Below are positions 49,953 through 62,412 of a stretch of 64,000 nucleotides of DNA, piece after piece. Both the position numbers and the translations under genes were made by a program. The notes beneath the pieces are model-generated. The model did not search any database. It had not been told where the DNA came from and saw only the letters and a program-made list of their open reading frames with translations. Location of the stretch: contig NZ_LPUF01000003.1 of assembly GCF_002072955.1 (NCBI RefSeq), positions 496,001-560,000 of the forward strand. The letters are read 5' to 3'. This stretch comes from Methyloprofundus sedimenti. GTDB taxonomy: Bacteria > Pseudomonadota > Gammaproteobacteria > Methylococcales > Methylomonadaceae. The first letter of the stretch is position 1. Each line of letters opens with the position of its first letter.

Positions 49953-50780
49953 TTATTTTAAAGGCACCCAGCTACTATAAAATATATGGTTCATTTTTTG
50001 CATTATAGTTGCCACAAGTTTGACAAATAAATCCATTACAAAATGACATTTACTCGGCCTTACAATATCGACAAACAAACAATAACGAGGCTCATCAGTT
50101 TCATTAAAGGATTGGTGTTGTAAAGTATCATCAAAAATGAACATTTTACTTTCACACCAGTGATTCTCTATATTACCTACCTTAATATAGGCATCCTGAC
50201 TGCTAATATCATTGATATTATAAAGCACTCTTAAAGTTGTTCTTAATGGCCCAAAATGCTCATCTGTTGATTCTTTTTTATTAAAAACAGAAACACCTAT
50301 TGTTCTGACATATTTATAGTCTTTATGAAATGCAGGAACAGTATAAAAATTATCAACATTCTTACCATACCACTTGAAGAAAATCATACTTCTCCTGATT
50401 TTCTCTGCCCGACTAGACAGTTCATCCACTACGTTTTCAGATTTGACCACATCCAATAATTCATTGATTTCCAGCCGACACTCATCAGGCAGGTCTTGTA
50501 ACAGATACACTTTCTTATTGATATAAGGCAAGGTAACAATATCCATCAAAATATTAAAAGGGGACAAGGCCCATGTCGGCACGCCATTACCAAAAAAGTA
50601 TCGATATAACACTCTGCCATTGATATTACCGTTACGGCTTACATCATAAGCGCCACAAATAACGTAAAAAAGCATCACCTCAGGTAAAAAATACGTTAAC
50701 GAGATTAAAAACACATACCAGATAACTGATTGCACTAAAAACTTTCTTCTTCTCTTTGTTTCAAATGATGCCTTATCCAT
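49953..50780 (-). CDS. Membrane-anchored aspartyl/asparaginyl beta-hydroxylase-like protein
   Basis: 275 residues. N-terminal hydrophobic segment (LVQSVIWYVFLISLTYFLPEVMLFYVICG, ~15-43), then a cytoplasmic Asp/Asn-hydroxylase-type domain of the cupin, Fe(II)/2-oxoglutarate dioxygenase class. The His pair is H175 (EHFGPLRTTLRVLYNI) and H222 (FIFDDTLQHQSFN), and the 2-oxoglutarate Arg candidate is R232 (DEPRYCLFVDIVRP). Substrate unknown: known relatives hydroxylate lipid A acyl chains (LpxO) or proteins. It lies divergent from the sterol operon with 110 bases between the start of this gene and the open frame of cyp51. Confidence 0.82.
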   Translation of the reverse strand: MDKASFETKRRRKFLVQSVIWYVFLISLTYFLPEVMLFYVICGAYDVSRNGNINGRVLYRYFFGNGVPTWALSPFNILMDIVTLPYINKKVYLLQDLPDECRLEINELLDVVKSENVVDELSSRAEKIRRSMIFFKWYGKNVDNFYTVPAFHKDYKYVRTIGVSVFNKKESTDEHFGPLRTTLRVLYNINDISSQDAYIKVGNIENHWCESKMFIFDDTLQHQSFNETDEPRYCLFVDIVRPSKCHFVMDLFVKLVATIMQKMNHIFYSSWVPLK

Positions 50781-51020: not shown

Positions 51021-52637
51021 ATGACTGAACAACCAAGCCCAACCAATAAAGAACCTGAAAAAATGCCAGGCGGTCTCCCGCTTATTGGCCATATGCTTAA
51101 ATTTGGGAAAAATCCATTTGACTATATGACCTTATTAAGAAGCAAACTAGGTGAAATTGGGGAGTTTCGTTTGTTTCATCAGCAAATGGTATTACTAACC
51201 GGTCCTGAAGGCAATGAAGCATTTTTTCGTGCACCGGATGATCAGCTTGATCAAAATGAAGCCTACAAAGTCATGACACCTATTTTTGGTAAAGGTGTGG
51301 TTTTTGATGCGCCACCGCATATCAAAGACCAGCAATTAAAAATGCTGATGCCGGTATTACGCGACAAGCCCATGCGCACCTACTCTAAAGTTATCGTACA
51401 GGAGGTAGAAGAAGCCATTAAAGATTGGGGTGACTCTGGCGAAGTTGATATACTTGAGTTTATGAAACAATTGACAATTTATACATCAAGTCACTGTTTA
51501 TTAGGTAATGAGTTCCGCTACGAACTAAATGAGGAGTTTGCACACCTTTATCATGATCTGGAAAATGGCATGCACCCGCTAGCCTTTATTTTTCCTTATT
51601 TACCTATTCCTATATTGCGCCGTCGAGATAAAGCACGTGTGCGTTTACAAGAATTAGTAACCGCTATTATCGAAAAAAGAGCGCAAAAAACTGAAAAAAG
51701 CGATGATGCCTTTCAAATGCTGATTGATGTACGCTATGACGATGGAAGCCCTCTCTCACCGCATGAAATTACCGGTTTACTGATTGGCACCTTATTTGCC
51801 GGACATCATACTACAGCTGGCACAGCTGCCTGGATTACACTTGAACTTGCACGAAATCCTAAATATATGGATAAAGTGCTGCAAGAATTTGATACTTTAT
51901 ATGGGCATGAGGGCGAAGTCACCTTTCAGTCTTTACGTGAAATCCCAGTATTTGAACGCGTGATTAAAGAAGTCTTGCGTTTGCATCCTCCGTTGATTTT
52001 TCTGATTCGAAAAGTCGCTAAAGATCTGAAATTTAAAGATTATATTATCAAAGCAGGTAAATATGTCTGCGTATCCCCTCGTGTATCTCACCGTATACCG
52101 GAGATATTTCCTGATCCGGAAAAATTTGATCCGGAACGTTTTACCAAAGAACGCCAGGAAGACGCAATTCCCTTTAGCTGGGTCGCTTTCGGAGGAGGAC
52201 GTCATAAATGCAGTGGCAATGCCTTTGCCATGTTACAGCTAAAAGCTATTTATGCGATATTATTACGCCGTTATAAATTTGAACTGGTTGGCACTCCCGA
52301 AAGTTATCAAGACGATTATAAACAAATGGTCGTCCAGCCTGGCTCCCCTTGCATGGTGCGCTACACCAAACGAGGCAATATCAAGCAAACAGCCACTGCA
52401 AGCAAGGACACTGTTGCTAACACCGTTACCAAACTTAACTGCTTTAAAATAGATATCGATATGGACTTATGCCAGGGACATGCAAACTGCATGGCGGAAG
52501 CACCTGAAATTTTTCAGGTTGATGACAAAGGCAAATTAAGCATATTACAAGATACACCAAACAATACTTTACTCAAAAAAGCACAAGCGGCAGCAGAATA
52601 CTGCCCTACAAGTGCAATAAAAATAATACAGGATTAG
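51021..52637 (+). CDS. cyp51: Sterol 14-alpha-demethylase CYP51 fused to 3Fe-4S ferredoxin
   Basis: 538 residues from ATG 51021 (MTEQPSPTNKEPEKMPGGLPLIGHMLKFG); the frame is open from 50892 but the earlier start would run through the inverted repeat. Residues 1-450 are a P450: I-helix AGHHTTAGT (260-268), ExxR in KEVLRLHPP, heme-binding FGGGRHKCSG with C397. A linker leads to a ferredoxin (about 470-538) with three cysteines (CQGHANC...YCPTSA) of the 3Fe-4S type. Same fusion as Methylococcus capsulatus. Removes the 14-alpha methyl of lanosterol-type sterols. Confidence 0.95.
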   Translation: MTEQPSPTNKEPEKMPGGLPLIGHMLKFGKNPFDYMTLLRSKLGEIGEFRLFHQQMVLLTGPEGNEAFFRAPDDQLDQNEAYKVMTPIFGKGVVFDAPPHIKDQQLKMLMPVLRDKPMRTYSKVIVQEVEEAIKDWGDSGEVDILEFMKQLTIYTSSHCLLGNEFRYELNEEFAHLYHDLENGMHPLAFIFPYLPIPILRRRDKARVRLQELVTAIIEKRAQKTEKSDDAFQMLIDVRYDDGSPLSPHEITGLLIGTLFAGHHTTAGTAAWITLELARNPKYMDKVLQEFDTLYGHEGEVTFQSLREIPVFERVIKEVLRLHPPLIFLIRKVAKDLKFKDYIIKAGKYVCVSPRVSHRIPEIFPDPEKFDPERFTKERQEDAIPFSWVAFGGGRHKCSGNAFAMLQLKAIYAILLRRYKFELVGTPESYQDDYKQMVVQPGSPCMVRYTKRGNIKQTATASKDTVANTVTKLNCFKIDIDMDLCQGHANCMAEAPEIFQVDDKGKLSILQDTPNNTLLKKAQAAAEYCPTSAIKIIQD

Positions 52638-52646
52638 GGAATTAAC

Positions 52647-53249
52647 ATGGCCGCATACCCAAGAGTCGAACTTGAAGAAATGGTAGAACGTTGGTTAGAA
52701 GCGAATCGCCAAGCCGAAAATGATGGTAACTGGCCTAAGCATTTAGGTGCCATGTATACCGACAATGCTGAATACCGCTGGAATATCGGACCAAATGAAG
52801 AATTTGTCGCACGCAATCGCAAACAAATTGAAGAGTGGGCGCTTGGTGCTCAAATGAAAGGCTTTGAAGAATGGAAATATCCGTACCACCGAATTCTGAT
52901 TGATGAAAAACAAGGTGAAGTAATCGGTTTATGGACACAAGTGTCCCCGGCTAAAAGAGACGATGGCACCCATTATATGGTAGAAGGCACAGGCGGCTCC
53001 TGGTTTCGTTATGGTGGCGATTACAAATGGGAATGGCAACGAGATTTCTTTGATCTAGGTAATACCAAAGCCTTGTTTTTCGAACTGGCTGCTGCAGGTA
53101 AACTAGACCCTGCCGTCAAAGAAAAAATAGGCAAATTGGCTAAAGGCCATCCACTCCCAGGTCATGAAAAAATACGCCCAGAGGCAAGTCTATTGCAAAA
53201 AATAAAAGGTTTTTTAGTCATGATTCGTATCGCCATTTTTAATAAATAG
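52647..53249 (+). CDS. NTF2-like (SnoaL-type) protein within the sterol operon
   Basis: 200 residues, 10 bases after cyp51 on the same strand, with AGGATTAGGG as ribosome site. The NTF2-like fold is suggested by the N-terminal helix (EEMVERWLEANRQAENDGNWPKHLGAMYTDNAEYRWNIGP) followed by a curved sheet region (QGEVIGLWTQVSPAKRDDGTHYMVEGTGGSWFRYGGDYKWEWQRDFFD). The C-terminal 30 residues are basic and include a hydrophobic stretch that could contact membrane (FLVMIRIAIF). Ketosteroid isomerase has this fold. An isomerase or binding role on sterol intermediates is a guess from context. Confidence 0.8.
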   Translation: MAAYPRVELEEMVERWLEANRQAENDGNWPKHLGAMYTDNAEYRWNIGPNEEFVARNRKQIEEWALGAQMKGFEEWKYPYHRILIDEKQGEVIGLWTQVSPAKRDDGTHYMVEGTGGSWFRYGGDYKWEWQRDFFDLGNTKALFFELAAAGKLDPAVKEKIGKLAKGHPLPGHEKIRPEASLLQKIKGFLVMIRIAIFNK

Positions 53250-53310: not shown

Positions 53311-54519
53311 ATGAATACTGAAGAAGAACAACCTAAAAGTCGCCGCGAACAAGTAAGATCTGTTGGCCAAAGCGGTAATTACTGGTATGCCATGGAAATG
53401 AGCTCCAAACTTAAAAAAGGCCAATCTGTAGAAGTAATTTTCTGGAAAAGCCCTATCGCCTTATATCGTGGCGAAGATGGCAAGGTCAATGCGATAGAAA
53501 ACCGCTGCCCACATCGCCAACTACGATTGACTTCAGGCATCGTTCAAGGCAATGAAATTACCTGTCAATACCATGGCTGGAGCTTTGATGGATGCGGCAA
53601 ATGCACTGGTATATCTCACGAATTAGGTAAAGGTAAGGCAAAAGACAGCTTACCTAATATCAAAATAAATTCTTACCCGGTACAGGAAAAATATGACTTA
53701 ATCTGGGTATTTCCTGGTGATCCTGCACTGGCAGATAAAGTATCCATCCCCGAAGTACCTCAGCTTACACAAGATAAGCCCTGGGAGTTTGTACCGCTGG
53801 ATTTCACGCTTAAGGCTCATTTCAGCATGATTCTGGAAAATGTATGTGACTTTAACCATGCTTTTTTGCACCGTAAATTTAAACCCTTTACTGATCCACA
53901 CTTATTAGGCACCCGACATGAAGGCGATATAATCTATGTAGATTATGAAACCGACATGAGCCAAAGCAGTGCCGTTAAGACCGCAGGCGAAAAAAAAGGC
54001 GCAGGCCTGGAAGATATGACCTTATGGTATCACTACCCCTATCAAGGCTCGAATACGGCTGACAAATATTTACATTGGCTTTTTATGACACCCATGGATG
54101 AACGTACTACGCGTTGTTTTTTCGTGTTCTTACTAGGCCCACTGGAAATTCCTTTTATCAATAAACCCGTTCCCAAGTTTTTACGTAAAACGGTCATTCG
54201 TTTAGCCAACTTCTTTTATATTGTTCCTCTGCTTAAAGAAGATGTGTATATTCTGCAAGAAGAAATGCTGGGTCAGGAACGACACCCACATATTCAGCAT
54301 CTTGAATTCAATCCTATCGTCGGTGAGTTTCAGAAGCTGAGTATTAAAAAATGGAATGAATATATACACACCGAAGCATTGCGTAAAAAGGAACAGCTAG
54401 AATCTAAAGAACGCTATATTTTTCCAGGTGCTGGCTTGAGTAAAAAAGAACTCAGCGAATACAACCGCATGCAAGAAGAAAGCAAAATACTGGAAGAAAG
54501 TAAAGAGCTTGGTATATAA
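53311..54519 (+). CDS. sdmA: Rieske oxygenase SdmA (sterol C-4 demethylation)
   Basis: 402 residues. The Rieske motif is C66-x-H68 and C85-x2-H88 (NRCPHRQ, ITCQYHGW), and the mononuclear iron site is D180/H183/H187 (ENVCDFNHAFLH). It removes C-4 methyl groups of sterols in a bacterial pathway, together with SdmB. It lies 61 bp after the NTF2-like gene and 111 bp before sdmB. The match to SdmA is from domain type plus position between cyp51 and a 3-beta-HSD-type dehydrogenase; it is not an independent alignment. Confidence 0.88.
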   Translation: MNTEEEQPKSRREQVRSVGQSGNYWYAMEMSSKLKKGQSVEVIFWKSPIALYRGEDGKVNAIENRCPHRQLRLTSGIVQGNEITCQYHGWSFDGCGKCTGISHELGKGKAKDSLPNIKINSYPVQEKYDLIWVFPGDPALADKVSIPEVPQLTQDKPWEFVPLDFTLKAHFSMILENVCDFNHAFLHRKFKPFTDPHLLGTRHEGDIIYVDYETDMSQSSAVKTAGEKKGAGLEDMTLWYHYPYQGSNTADKYLHWLFMTPMDERTTRCFFVFLLGPLEIPFINKPVPKFLRKTVIRLANFFYIVPLLKEDVYILQEEMLGQERHPHIQHLEFNPIVGEFQKLSIKKWNEYIHTEALRKKEQLESKERYIFPGAGLSKKELSEYNRMQEESKILEESKELGI

Positions 54520-54630: not shown

Positions 54631-55619
54631 ATGACGACACTTGTAACCGGTGCAACAGGGCATTTGGGGGCTAATTTAGTCCGCGCATTATTAGCAAGAG
54701 GTGAAGAAGTTCGTGTCCTTTTGCGTAAAGACAGCAGTAATATTGAAGTAGAAGGGCTGGATGTAGAACATGCCTACGGCAACCTAAAAGATAAACAATC
54801 GCTTATCGCAGCCGTAAAAGGCTGTGATTATGTGTATCATCTCGCGGCCTTCGTCAGTATTCGTAACGGCGACCGCAAAGAACTGTATGACGTTAATGTG
54901 CTTGGTACTCGCTATTTAATGCAAGCCTGTCGTCTTCAGGGCGTTAAGAAAGTCGTACATTGCAGCTCCTTCGGCGCAGTAGGTAATAACCCCGATGGCG
55001 CATCCAATGAAAAATGGGCAGTCAGTCCCTATGAAATGACGACTGACTATGAAATTTCTAAAACCTTTGCAGAACTCGAAGTTTATAAAGAAATTGTGCG
55101 CGGTCTGCCTGCAGTGATAGTCAATCCATCAGGTATTGTAGGTCCATGGGACTTTAAGCCTTCTCTGCTCGGTAGAACAATTATTGAATTTGCACAAGGA
55201 AAAATGCGTGCCTCAGTTCCGGGAGGATTTGATTTCACACCTGTTCAGGATGTAGTGCAGGGGCACCTGCTAGCCATGGAAAAGGGCGTTATTGGCGAGC
55301 GCTATTTACTTACCGGTGAACAACACAGTATTAATGAAACACTGGGCTGGCTGGAAGAATTTACCGGCGTAAGCAAACCTAGATGGGTCATCCCTACTTT
55401 TTCATGCAAAACATTGCCATCGTAAAAGACTGGATTGAACGGAAATTTTTCCCCCATGTTTATCCGCGCTTTAACTATCATTCCATTCGTCTGTTAAATT
55501 GCGGAAAATACGGAACCCATACCCGGGCAATAAATGAACTGGGCTTGAAACCAACACCCGTTAAAGAAGCCTACCGTGATTCGTTTCTCTGGTTTAAAGA
55601 ACACCGATATATTGAGTAA
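54631..55619 (+). pseudogene. sdmB: SdmB-like NAD(P)-dependent 3-beta-hydroxysteroid dehydrogenase, one-base frameshift
   Basis: The first 254 residues to about 55392 carry the cofactor motif TGATGHLG (6-13) and Y140-x3-K144 (YEISK), typical of 3-beta-HSD/extended SDR, and then run into KPRWVIPTFSCKTLPS and stop at 55425. A frame one base away resumes PYFFMQNIAIVKDWIERKFFPHVYPRF from about 55395 and ends at 55619. Joining after KPRWVIP gives a normal ~330-residue protein. The likely cause is loss of one C in CCCC, now CCC at 55392-55394. A sequencing error or a slip site that is tolerated is possible. SdmB oxidises and decarboxylates C-4. Confidence 0.85.
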
Positions 55620-59381: not shown

Positions 59382-60962
59382 TTATCCACTGGCAGCGGCC
59401 GCACGAATGACTTCCGATAACGGAGGAATCCCTTCTAACTTCAGTAAGCGACTTTTTAAATAACCCCAAAATGACATGCCGTGCTTTCGGCAGGTCTTCT
59501 TGAGACTGGCAAAAGTATCACGGGCTTTCCGCCCTGCATCACTTCGTGTACTCCCGCTGATTTTTCGTTTCTTGACGTAATCCCTTATATCCCGTTCGCT
59601 TAAATTGTTATGAAGTGGGAGGTAGGGTTTGTCGAGTACACGGAGGAGTTCATGTTGATTTTTCCCCATTCGCCCGAGGGCCTGGTTAAGCGTTTCGTAA
59701 CAGGTTTTGGTACTGCATAGGATTTGAAAGCGCTGCCTGATACTGCTCGCCTGTTCGGTAACAGGATTAAGTTTATAAGCTTTCAGGTCATGGTAAATCG
59801 ACCAAAGCTGGTCGCGTGCGTCATCTACTGCCTTGGTATGGCTGTCATTTAAAGGAATCAGGCGATTAATCACTCGTTCGGCATGGATCCAGCACAAGGC
59901 ATGATCAAAGACGTTAAACTGCCCTGCATCATCACTGATAATTGAAAAGTCAGAGGAAATGCCTTGGTCTAGCAGCCCTCCCATCAAAGCACCTTCCGTG
60001 ACTATTTTTCTGTGCCGAGGTTTAACGATGCCTTGCTGATCCAGCCATTCGCACCAGTCAGGTGCCGTGTTAATGCAGACACTGATATTTTCCAGTGTCG
60101 CCAAGATTACAACAGACAGCTTATTTTGTGCCATGTATTCAATGGCACCTGTGTTCAATGTATAAAGCGTTGTTTTGCCTTGTGATAGACAGTTTAAAAA
60201 ATTGATTCTGCTTTTACTTTCTGTACTACTGAACCAGGCAAAAAAATCATTGCCAATATGTGTGCAATAGCCATTTTGCCCTTTATGCCGTGCGCCAGTA
60301 TCATCTGTATGAATATATTTAGAAACGGATAATCCCGTCTTCAGTAATTCATCTTTTTCGGCATGAAAGTCGTCCAGATCTTCTGTTAGTATATAACTGA
60401 GCTTACCGCTCGAAATATCGACGCCTAAATCACGAATTTGTTCCAGTAGTAATGGCTGTGTGACATGTTGGTGATGGTATTGATAGAGAATAAAGGCAAT
60501 AAGGCTTTTACCAAAGCTACCTCCCTGAATGTCTTCGGGAAGCTGACCTAAAATCGTAAGACCCTCTGGCGTTATATATTCTGCTAAACGATAACGAATG
60601 TTATGAGTTTGAAAGGTAATATCCTGAATAACACGATCCTGATACCCTTTAAAGCGTGAACCCTCTGGGATTTCATCCGGCTGAATAATTTGGGTTTCAT
60701 CTATTTTGAGGTTGCCTTTTTTACTGCGCCTTGGGCCTTTTTTCCTTTTTGATGAGGAGTCATCACTTCCTGGGGCACCCTCCTTATCCATTGTACTCGG
60801 TTTGATTTTAGGCTTTGTGGTTTCGCCTTTAAGCTTGAGTATCTCTTGTGCTAACTCATCAATCTGCTTTTGTTGCCAGGCAAGCATTTCCAATAACACA
60901 TCGACTAGCGGTGTGCGATCTTCTTTGTTTATCTCTGGTAATTCAGGTTTAGGCGAGTTCAT
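59382..60962 (-). CDS. IS66 family transposase (TnpC type)
   Basis: 526 residues from ATG 60962 (MNSPKPELPEINKEDRTPLVDVLLEMLAWQQKQIDELAQEILKLK, coiled-coil start). The frame is open to 61088 but that extra part lies in ISL3. Zinc-finger-like region, a helical linker and a DDE-type core are seen (HTDDTGARHKGQNGYCTHIGN, ISDDAGQFNVFDHALCWIHAERV, LHNNLSERDIRDYVKKRKISGSTRSDAGRKARD, ends FASLKKTCRKHGMSFWGYL). No tnpA/tnpB is present; the element has TnpC only. Confidence 0.92.
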   Translation of the reverse strand: MNSPKPELPEINKEDRTPLVDVLLEMLAWQQKQIDELAQEILKLKGETTKPKIKPSTMDKEGAPGSDDSSSKRKKGPRRSKKGNLKIDETQIIQPDEIPEGSRFKGYQDRVIQDITFQTHNIRYRLAEYITPEGLTILGQLPEDIQGGSFGKSLIAFILYQYHHQHVTQPLLLEQIRDLGVDISSGKLSYILTEDLDDFHAEKDELLKTGLSVSKYIHTDDTGARHKGQNGYCTHIGNDFFAWFSSTESKSRINFLNCLSQGKTTLYTLNTGAIEYMAQNKLSVVILATLENISVCINTAPDWCEWLDQQGIVKPRHRKIVTEGALMGGLLDQGISSDFSIISDDAGQFNVFDHALCWIHAERVINRLIPLNDSHTKAVDDARDQLWSIYHDLKAYKLNPVTEQASSIRQRFQILCSTKTCYETLNQALGRMGKNQHELLRVLDKPYLPLHNNLSERDIRDYVKKRKISGSTRSDAGRKARDTFASLKKTCRKHGMSFWGYLKSRLLKLEGIPPLSEVIRAAAASG

Positions 60963-61010
60963 AGAATATATTGTAAAGCAACTTTTTAATATTTTCCCGT
61001 GGATAATGAG

Positions 61011-62412
61011 GGCTCTTCCCGATTTCGCGGGGTGACCACAACATATAGTGTTAAGCATATCCGAATAAACGTCGGCCTTCGACATCAAGCCAAATATGCT
61101 GAAATAAACGCCCTATATCATAAATGCCATAGCAACGTCTTTTGATCACCTTAATTTTGTTATTCAGTCCTTCTACAAAACCACTGGTTTCACGGCGAAG
61201 AAAATAATTAGTGATTTCATGCTGCCAGTTTTGTAAGGTCACTATAAATGAGTTGAAACAGTCCAACTTCAGATTTCTAACCTGCTCGACCCATGAATTT
61301 AGCTCAGCTTCTGCCTGACTTTTACTTAAAGGTCGGTTAAAAATACCCGTCAATGCTTCCCGATAAATATAAATTTGCTTAAGCTCTGGCGCATAATTAA
61401 AGAGTTGTATTAATTTAATTTGTTGCTCTTCATTCAAGTCCCAGAGTGATTTTCGGAATAACCACATCACGCCTTTCAGTTGGGCATAATCCTCACTAGA
61501 AAGCGTCTTTTTCAGTGTTTTCATCTCTTTTATTCTTGCGTTGTCTGCACAGGCTCGATAGCTTTTGGTCACATGGAATCGATCAACCACAACCTCAACG
61601 CCATGAAGTTCCTCATACACTGCATTACTGTAGCCGTCATACATATCAACGCAGGCACGTTGTATTGTTCTTTTAATTTCCACGGGAATGCTTTGTAGAA
61701 ATATTTTTACTGTTTCCTTTTTGCGATTTGGCAATACGGCCAAAATGCATTTTTCTCCGCCTTCATTGATCCCTGAAATGATAACAACAAAATCTTTATG
61801 TCCTTTTTTTAACGCAATCTCATCAAGTCCAAGTAATGGCAGGCTTTTTATTGTCTCCCAATCCACTTCTTGACGAATATAACGATTAATAATGCCTTCA
61901 ACAGCCGCTTCATTAATGCCACGTTTGATACTGATGTCGGTTATTGTGCTATTGATTAGGTCGCGCAATATCCACTGTTCATAGGCTTTAGTATGTGGGC
62001 TTTTTTGATCATACCAACTACAGCGCTGAGTGGTTGTCGGGCCTTGATCACAATAAGGGCATTGGTAACGCTTCGGTTTGATCTTAATCCAGACGGACTG
62101 TTCAAAGATCGGTAAATGGCGTAACGTAATTTCTTTGCCATAGCCATAAAACTTATCGATAGGCTGATGGCATTGCCGACAAGTTGTGCCTTTGCATGTA
62201 CTTTGGACTTTAATAATAATTCCTTTTTTAGACTCAGTATCAAATGCCTCTATTTGCACATCGGGTAAATCCAAAGGAATTTGTAACAATATCGGGTTCA
62301 TTTATTTAAAGTTTGCCGTCTAAAAAGATGGCTATCATACCCAGCCTGCACCTAAATAATCAAATAGCAATATACTACATATAGTGACTACCCCGCGAAG
62401 TCGGGAAGAGCC
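61011..62412 (-). mobile_element. ISL3-family insertion sequence, copy 2 (1402 bp)
   Basis: Starts GGCTCTTCCCGATTTCGCGG and ends CCGCGAAGTCGGGAAGAGCC, the same ends as copy 1 in opposite orientation. Exact 8-bp duplication ATAATGAG at 61003-61010 and 62413-62420. It is nested in the IS66 right inverted repeat, so it arrived after IS66. Confidence 0.96.
61051..62301 (-). CDS. ISL3 family transposase (copy 2)
   Basis: 416 residues, identical in sequence to the product at 28543-29793 (zinc finger CKGTTCRQCH, LGLDEIALKKGH, terminal RETSGFVEGLNNK). Intact and carried in the opposite orientation. Confidence 0.95.
   Translation of the reverse strand: MNPILLQIPLDLPDVQIEAFDTESKKGIIIKVQSTCKGTTCRQCHQPIDKFYGYGKEITLRHLPIFEQSVWIKIKPKRYQCPYCDQGPTTTQRCSWYDQKSPHTKAYEQWILRDLINSTITDISIKRGINEAAVEGIINRYIRQEVDWETIKSLPLLGLDEIALKKGHKDFVVIISGINEGGEKCILAVLPNRKKETVKIFLQSIPVEIKRTIQRACVDMYDGYSNAVYEELHGVEVVVDRFHVTKSYRACADNARIKEMKTLKKTLSSEDYAQLKGVMWLFRKSLWDLNEEQQIKLIQLFNYAPELKQIYIYREALTGIFNRPLSKSQAEAELNSWVEQVRNLKLDCFNSFIVTLQNWQHEITNYFLRRETSGFVEGLNNKIKVIKRRCYGIYDIGRLFQHIWLDVEGRRLFGYA

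Follow-up and report, generated by a model that had tools for sequence, protein, structure and literature searches.

An orthologue of the bacterial 8,14-sterol reductase is encoded between cyp51 and sdmA in Methyloprofundus sedimenti

Sterol C-14 reductases of the ERG24/DHCR14 type (PF01222) are membrane NADPH enzymes that remove the Δ14 bond after C-14 demethylation and give Δ8 sterols. A separate family sharing this function was described in May 2026 by Lee, Giner and Welander (J Bacteriol), who searched for genes common to sterol-making methanotrophs and arrived at an NTF2-superfamily protein encoded beside sterol genes, named 8,14-Bsr (bacterial 8,14-sterol reductase), whose M. capsulatus member is H156_RS0106965 (PMC13277303). 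According to that report, M. capsulatus Cyp51 by itself yields the 8,14-diene, and when Cyp51 and 8,14-Bsr were expressed together in E. coli, 4,4-dimethylcholesta-8,14,24-trienol was replaced by 4,4-dimethylcholesta-8(14),24-dienol, a Δ8(14) sterol typical of methanotrophs, with all of the detectable trienol converted (PMC13277303). Activity was lower in the D133A, Y43F, Y43A, Y37A, and Y78A mutants, Y43 and D133 being important, and was not lowered in D136A, Y37F, Y78F, Y80F, or Y80A (PMC13277303). Homologs from Mycobacterium tuberculosis and an uncultured myxobacterium, representing two other phyla, were also active, if less efficiently, and an attempt to delete the gene was unsuccessful (PMC13277303). 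The authors report no transmembrane helices in the family, see no cofactor-site homology, propose that a hydride, perhaps from NADPH, is placed at C15 and a proton at C9, and describe 8,14-Bsr as present in all sterol-producing aerobic methanotrophs (PMC13277303). The activity test was coexpression in cells, the method headings of the paper list no enzyme assay, and its available text uses "purified" solely for DNA and "in vitro" for work on oocytes (PMC13277303); direct action of the enzyme on the diene and the identity of its hydride donor are therefore proposals. Among the matches listed in a literature search, the term 14-bsr was found only in PMC13277303.

Three other groups of NTF2-superfamily enzymes bear comparison. 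LdpA and PcfL, formaldehyde lyases of Novosphingobium and Sphingobium, combine removal of one carbon with formation of a C=C bond, and the word "cofactorless" for this type comes from a cited title (PMC12997858, PMC11323797); their substrates are lignin dimers, and they are likened to 8,14-Bsr by description, not by sequence. The 7-alpha-hydroxysteroid dehydratases Hsh2 and BaiE perform elimination chemistry on steroid rings (PMC12175502) but eliminate water from 3-keto steroids, and here too the likeness is one of description and not of sequence. Ketosteroid isomerase (KSI; 1OH0) shares the fold and the position of the pocket, but the catalytic residues of the two enzymes reportedly do not align (PMC13277303).

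The stretch analyzed here (the window; 64,000 nucleotides) lies on contig 3 of the 4.29-Mb M. sedimenti genome. A complete ORF with an ATG start is found between the cyp51-ferredoxin fusion gene and sdmA (Table 1), and we refer to it as bsr. A preliminary description made from the DNA letters had placed an NTF2-fold gene in an operon of cyp51-ferredoxin, the NTF2-like gene, sdmA, and sdmB, and this arrangement was confirmed by the ORFs, by profile searches, and by AlphaFold2 and Foldseek, with the corrections that sdmB is frameshifted and that the distance to cyp51, given there as 10 bases, is 9. Together with the preceding AG, this spacer forms an AGGG stretch ahead of the bsr ATG that may act as a Shine-Dalgarno-like ribosome site. 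From the bsr stop to the sdmA start there are 61 bases, a gap in which no promoter-like site was found by a scan that returned 5 sites across 4 kb against 11.2 expected. The sdmB gene is judged to be frameshifted because the remainder of its profile sits in another frame; the shift occurs near position 55405, within a run of T. The sdmB frame is unbroken in seven of eight same-genus loci inspected and stops at the contig edge in the eighth (L064), and the frameshift in the window may be a real loss or an assembly error. Divergent from cyp51, the minus strand encodes an aspartyl/asparaginyl beta-hydroxylase-type protein (49953-50780; PF05118, 57.5 bits) with a likeness, far under the cut-off, to the lipid hydroxylases OlsC and LpxO. 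Near the window end, a long ORF on the minus strand (59382-61088) encodes a putative IS66-type transposase.

Table 1. Sterol genes of the window and distant Bsr-like proteins of sphingomonad plasmids
Feature	Coordinates	Strand	Size and evidence
cyp51-ferredoxin fusion (sterol 14-alpha demethylase with C-terminal ferredoxin domain)	51021..52637	+	538 aa; Pfam p450 270 bits, Fer4_15 47 bits
Ferredoxin domain of the cyp51 fusion	about 52449-52625	+	Fer4_15
9-base spacer, cyp51 stop to bsr ATG	52638..52646	+	sequence
bsr, 8,14-Bsr orthologue, predicted NTF2 fold	52647..53249	+	200 aa; residues Y37, Y43, Y78, Y80, D133, D136; AlphaFold2 and Foldseek
sdmA, Rieske C-4 sterol demethylase component	53311..54519	+	402 aa; NF052579 690 bits, cut-off 600
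sdmB, in-frame 5' part	54631..55425	+	NF052578 495 bits, under cut-off 600; profile positions 1-258 of 328
sdmB C-terminal remainder, other frame	55405..55619 (start approximate)	+	frame comparison
Sphingomonad Bsr-like NTF2 proteins	L103:8001-8549; L104:6001-6528		plasmids, among annotated dehydrogenase genes

Against Pfam, the window protein gave sub-threshold SnoaL matches only (SnoaL_2, 19.7 of 27 bits; SnoaL_4, 14 of 24 bits), and against NCBIfam it gave zero matches. Searches of the PDB with the single sequence and with a profile returned no convincing homolog, the best row of the profile search (E 5e-8) being presumably a designed repeat protein, judging by its name and repeats. The AlphaFold2 model, built on a 25-sequence alignment (pLDDT 92.8, pTM 0.85), matched 310 PDB chains at E ≤ 0.001 when searched with Foldseek, with the NsrQ isomerase in the top row (E 3.6e-7; TM 0.48 by query, 0.64 by target); judging by their names, we take the best 50 of these 310 rows to be NTF2/SnoaL-fold proteins, and 1OH0 is absent from the best 50. 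The predicted model has the NTF2 fold that the preliminary description had put to a structure check.

The residues Y37, Y43, Y78, Y80, D133, and D136 of the window protein have numbering identical to that of M. capsulatus 8,14-Bsr, and all six pocket residues are invariant in 82/82 distinct Bsr homologs, together with 43 further positions (49 invariant in total). This set was drawn from 101 loci, many of them the same genomes present twice, of which 97 gave a match of >150 residues and 82 remained distinct after removal of identical copies; L031 and L032, which contain no Bsr, and L033 and L100, in which contig ends cut the gene, were left out. The only invariant lysine, arginine, or histidine among the 82 homologs is R6, with R15, R58, and R104 conserved at 99% and K141 at 95%. 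No nucleotide-binding domain was recognized in Bsr by Pfam, NCBIfam, or the PDB profile search, and a GxGGS motif at residues 114-118 sits within beta strand 109-122 of the AlphaFold2 model; it is possible that Bsr binds NAD(P)H in an unrecognized way. Compared with 12 of the 15 same-genus bsr loci (L009, L013, and L014 left out), the window gene differs by 67-86 synonymous and 16-25 non-synonymous codon changes, and bsr is under purifying selection.

The gene is not confined to the genome of the window, as a co-occurrence check suggested in the preliminary description revealed: among 151 genomes, that of the window included, bsr is present in 59, Cyp51-ferredoxin in 61, and SdmA in 43 (E ≤ 1e-60 for the latter two). 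Every one of the 59 bsr genomes encodes Cyp51 (Fisher p = 4e-40 over the 151 genomes, a value that ignores kinship), whereas 42 of them encode SdmA and 17 have no sdmA match at that threshold; bsr goes with Cyp51 and not with the C-4 demethylase. In 37/59 genomes bsr immediately follows cyp51 on the same strand with a gap of <200 bases, in 10 it is divergent within 300 bases, in four it has another arrangement within 5 kb, in four it is distant on the contig of cyp51, and in four it is on a different contig. In one of these last four genomes (G002) the pair has been split by a contig break, as judged from the ferredoxin end of the fusion just preceding bsr. These positions indicate that cyp51 and bsr are a constant pair to which sdmA has been added in the genus of the window. 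When 40 loci were inspected, cyp51 was found in the same stretch as bsr in 37, the exceptions being L074 and L080, which are at contig edges, and L101. Neighbor gene calling was poor in the high-GC loci L097, L102, and L106. Some relatives contain bsr within long open frames (562-564 aa in G093 and G108), which may be gene fusions of the kind that could point to a cofactor partner, and in another genome (G127; L061:2982-3591) bsr follows cyp51 as two overlapping pieces in different frames, through either a frameshift or an assembly error.

Full-length matches to the ERG24-type C-14 reductase were detected in 5/151 genomes, all five of which encode Bsr, leaving 54/59 Bsr carriers without a full-length match; 20 further genomes with short ERG24-type matches only (two over the cut-off) were not counted. 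No ERG24-type match was detected in the genome of the window at E ≤ 0.001. The same genome encodes one DCTA-type and one DDTA-type cyclase, which from these signatures we take to be lanosterol-synthase-like and hopene-type, respectively.

The window gene is therefore an ordinary orthologue of the already known 8,14-Bsr in a clear operon setting, and we put at roughly 0.92 the probability that its product reduces and shifts the diene produced by Cyp51 to Δ8(14). The evidence consists of orthology, identical pocket residues, the fold, co-occurrence with Cyp51, and the absence from most carriers of any full-length match to a canonical C-14 reductase. On comparison with the published residue numbers, the window protein shares with M. 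capsulatus 8,14-Bsr the NTF2 superfamily, the numbers of the six pocket residues, the sterol context, and the presence of Cyp51-ferredoxin, and on these grounds probably has the same activity; the two loci differ in that the window gene sits between cyp51 and sdmA, immediately after the former, whereas the M. capsulatus gene is found among genes not known for sterols (PMC13277303). The Cyp51-ferredoxin encoded just upstream would strip the 14-alpha-methyl group from lanosterol to leave the Δ8,14 diene, which 8,14-Bsr would bind in a cone-shaped pocket, adding two hydrogens over the diene so that a single C8-C14 double bond remains. Since the net change from diene to Δ8(14) requires two hydrogens, this may be a 1,4-addition with hydride going to C15 and a proton to C9, perhaps with NADPH. 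The suggestion in the preliminary description that the protein might isomerize a double bond of the sterol once C-14 had been demethylated came close to the published activity, which is a reduction plus a double-bond shift; its view of the gene as an undescribed component of sterol synthesis has been superseded by the May 2026 description of the family (PMC13277303).

Beyond the order of the window, all ten loci L090-L099 (Ketobacter, HdN1, Zavarzinia, and other proteobacteria) contain cyp51 in the same stretch, and cyp51 and a ferredoxin are found beside bsr in a Nonomuraea locus (L102) and a draft genome (G539). The Bsr family is rare in wider groups: it was found in 4/369 genomes of a class sample (own, one of the family, one of the order, and G310, whose homolog is distant at E 6e-22, with no cyp51 within 10.7 kb) and in 2/398 genomes of a phylum sample (own and G539, with cyp51 nearby). 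In the non-methanotroph gammaproteobacterial loci L091, L093, L094 (6617-7474), L095, and L099, a conserved membrane-like protein of ~285 aa is encoded directly after bsr; it gave no Pfam match and, in the three scanned, no NCBIfam match, and it may resemble cycloeucalenol cycloisomerase. Distant relatives with 28-34% identity are encoded on sphingomonad plasmids as well as in G310. SARO_RS19525, on plasmid pNL2 of N. aromaticivorans, is 33.5% identical to Bsr over 161 residues (E 2e-23), and NTF2-like proteins of Sphingobium Tom strains are about 30% identical; in the two sphingomonad proteins that were compared, Y37, Y43, D133, and D136 are conserved, whereas positions 78 and 80 are occupied by phenylalanine and isoleucine, respectively. 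The sphingomonad loci have no cyp51 match in 12-16 kb, and their neighbors are annotated as steroid/short-chain dehydrogenases, one of those in Sphingobium being a 3-oxosteroid 1-dehydrogenase. Degradation of alpha-tomatine is described for some of the Tom strains (PMC10653915).

Two sets of genomes count against the reductase explanation. A deltaproteobacterial draft (L101) encodes a Bsr homolog that is 55% identical, with no cyp51 within 12.5 kb. Conversely, genus g20 has Cyp51 without Bsr: its two drafts, G036 (L032; 98% complete) and G061 (L031; 75% complete), each encode Cyp51-ferredoxin, cut by a contig end in G036, and one DCTA-type and one DDTA-type cyclase, and G061 also has sdmA and sdmB. 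No Bsr was detected in either draft even at E ≤ 10 using a profile that does recover the gene in the genome of the window, and no ERG24-type match is listed for either. The cyp51-sdmA interval of G061, which is the site of bsr in the genus of the window, spans about 790 bases of unbroken contig in which no remnant of bsr was seen; the quarter of the genome that this draft lacks might contain a copy. Genus g20 is thus a predicted exception, judged from draft sequence, to the published statement that all sterol-producing aerobic methanotrophs have the gene.

The alternative that survives best, although we consider it unlikely, is our own suggestion that Bsr may be a cofactor-free C-14 deformylase or lyase. 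Such an enzyme would take the C-32 alcohol or hydrated aldehyde from the Cyp51 cycle, expel formaldehyde or formic acid, and form C8=C14 directly by a retro-carbonyl-ene reaction or an acid-promoted fragmentation, with a hydrogen passing to the alpha face of C9, no NAD(P)H, and a reduction that is formal only. Because the C-32 alcohol and hydrated aldehyde are homoallylic to C8=C9, a retro-ene reaction would need no hydride to reach the Δ8(14) sterol, which is also the end product of the reductase route. We have kept this second reading because Bsr has no recognized cofactor site and R6 is its only invariant residue among lysine, arginine, and histidine. None of the best 50 of the 310 PDB rows is titled as a reductase; their titles name isomerases, epoxide hydrolases, SnoaL-like cyclases, PhzA/B and further biosynthesis proteins, along with a designed binder and proteins of unknown function. 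There is precedent for such chemistry in the NTF2 fold, since LdpA and PcfL deformylate with loss of formaldehyde (PMC12997858, PMC11323797) and Hsh2 and BaiE are steroid dehydratases (PMC12175502), but the sterol substrate would have no activating phenol or carbonyl, unlike that of LdpA. The published activity tests were run with Cyp51 present or on lanosterol by itself, and none on purified diene (PMC13277303). However, M. capsulatus Cyp51 alone makes the 8,14-diene, so that all Cyp51 steps work, and the complete conversion of the trienol on coexpression fits a downstream reductase more simply (PMC13277303); human CYP51, moreover, is highly processive (PMC11354347). Genes for S-(hydroxymethyl)glutathione dehydrogenase and S-formylglutathione hydrolase lie just 5' of cyp51-bsr in two of seven non-methanotroph genomes (L095:341-2315 and L099:1879-3856), where they are the sole matches, but this link to formaldehyde is weak because the two genomes are closely related and the matches single; in the other five the formaldehyde genes are elsewhere, and the dehydrogenase has no match in the genome of L097. 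Among the matches listed in the literature search, none was seen to propose that 8,14-Bsr works as a deformylase, and neither "deformyl" nor "formaldehyde" occurs in the main text of PMC13277303 as available.

It is improbable that Bsr is a plain KSI-like double-bond isomerase with the reduction carried out by another protein. Its NTF2 fold does contain a hydrophobic pocket at the position of the KSI pocket (PMC13277303), but one gene supplied to E. coli that already expressed Cyp51, a host with no sterol synthesis of its own, sufficed for the net reduction (PMC13277303), and 54 of the 59 carriers gave no full-length canonical C-14 reductase match. Least credible of all is a sterol carrier or redox partner for SdmA/SdmB, the preliminary description having raised carriage to SdmA as well as a redox or lipid partner: bsr does precede sdmA in the genus of the window, but carriage to SdmA is unneeded and was rejected since bsr tracks Cyp51 (59/59) and not SdmA (42/59), it lies directly behind cyp51 in 37 genomes regardless of the proximity of sdmA, and such a role is contradicted by the catalysis and the point mutants published for the family (PMC13277303).

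With the window protein taken as an 8,14-Bsr orthologue, the chemical question that remains is how a small fold with no recognized cofactor site achieves a net reduction, that is, the source of the hydride. If Bsr were instead a lyase, bacterial C-14 demethylation would bypass the diene, the third P450 turnover, and the NADPH reduction. Genus g20 is a possible natural exception whose sterols would reveal the outcome of the pathway without the Bsr step. The unusual 8(14)-sterols of methanotrophs serve as biomarkers, and the step that leads to them from Cyp51 is now assigned to the Bsr family.
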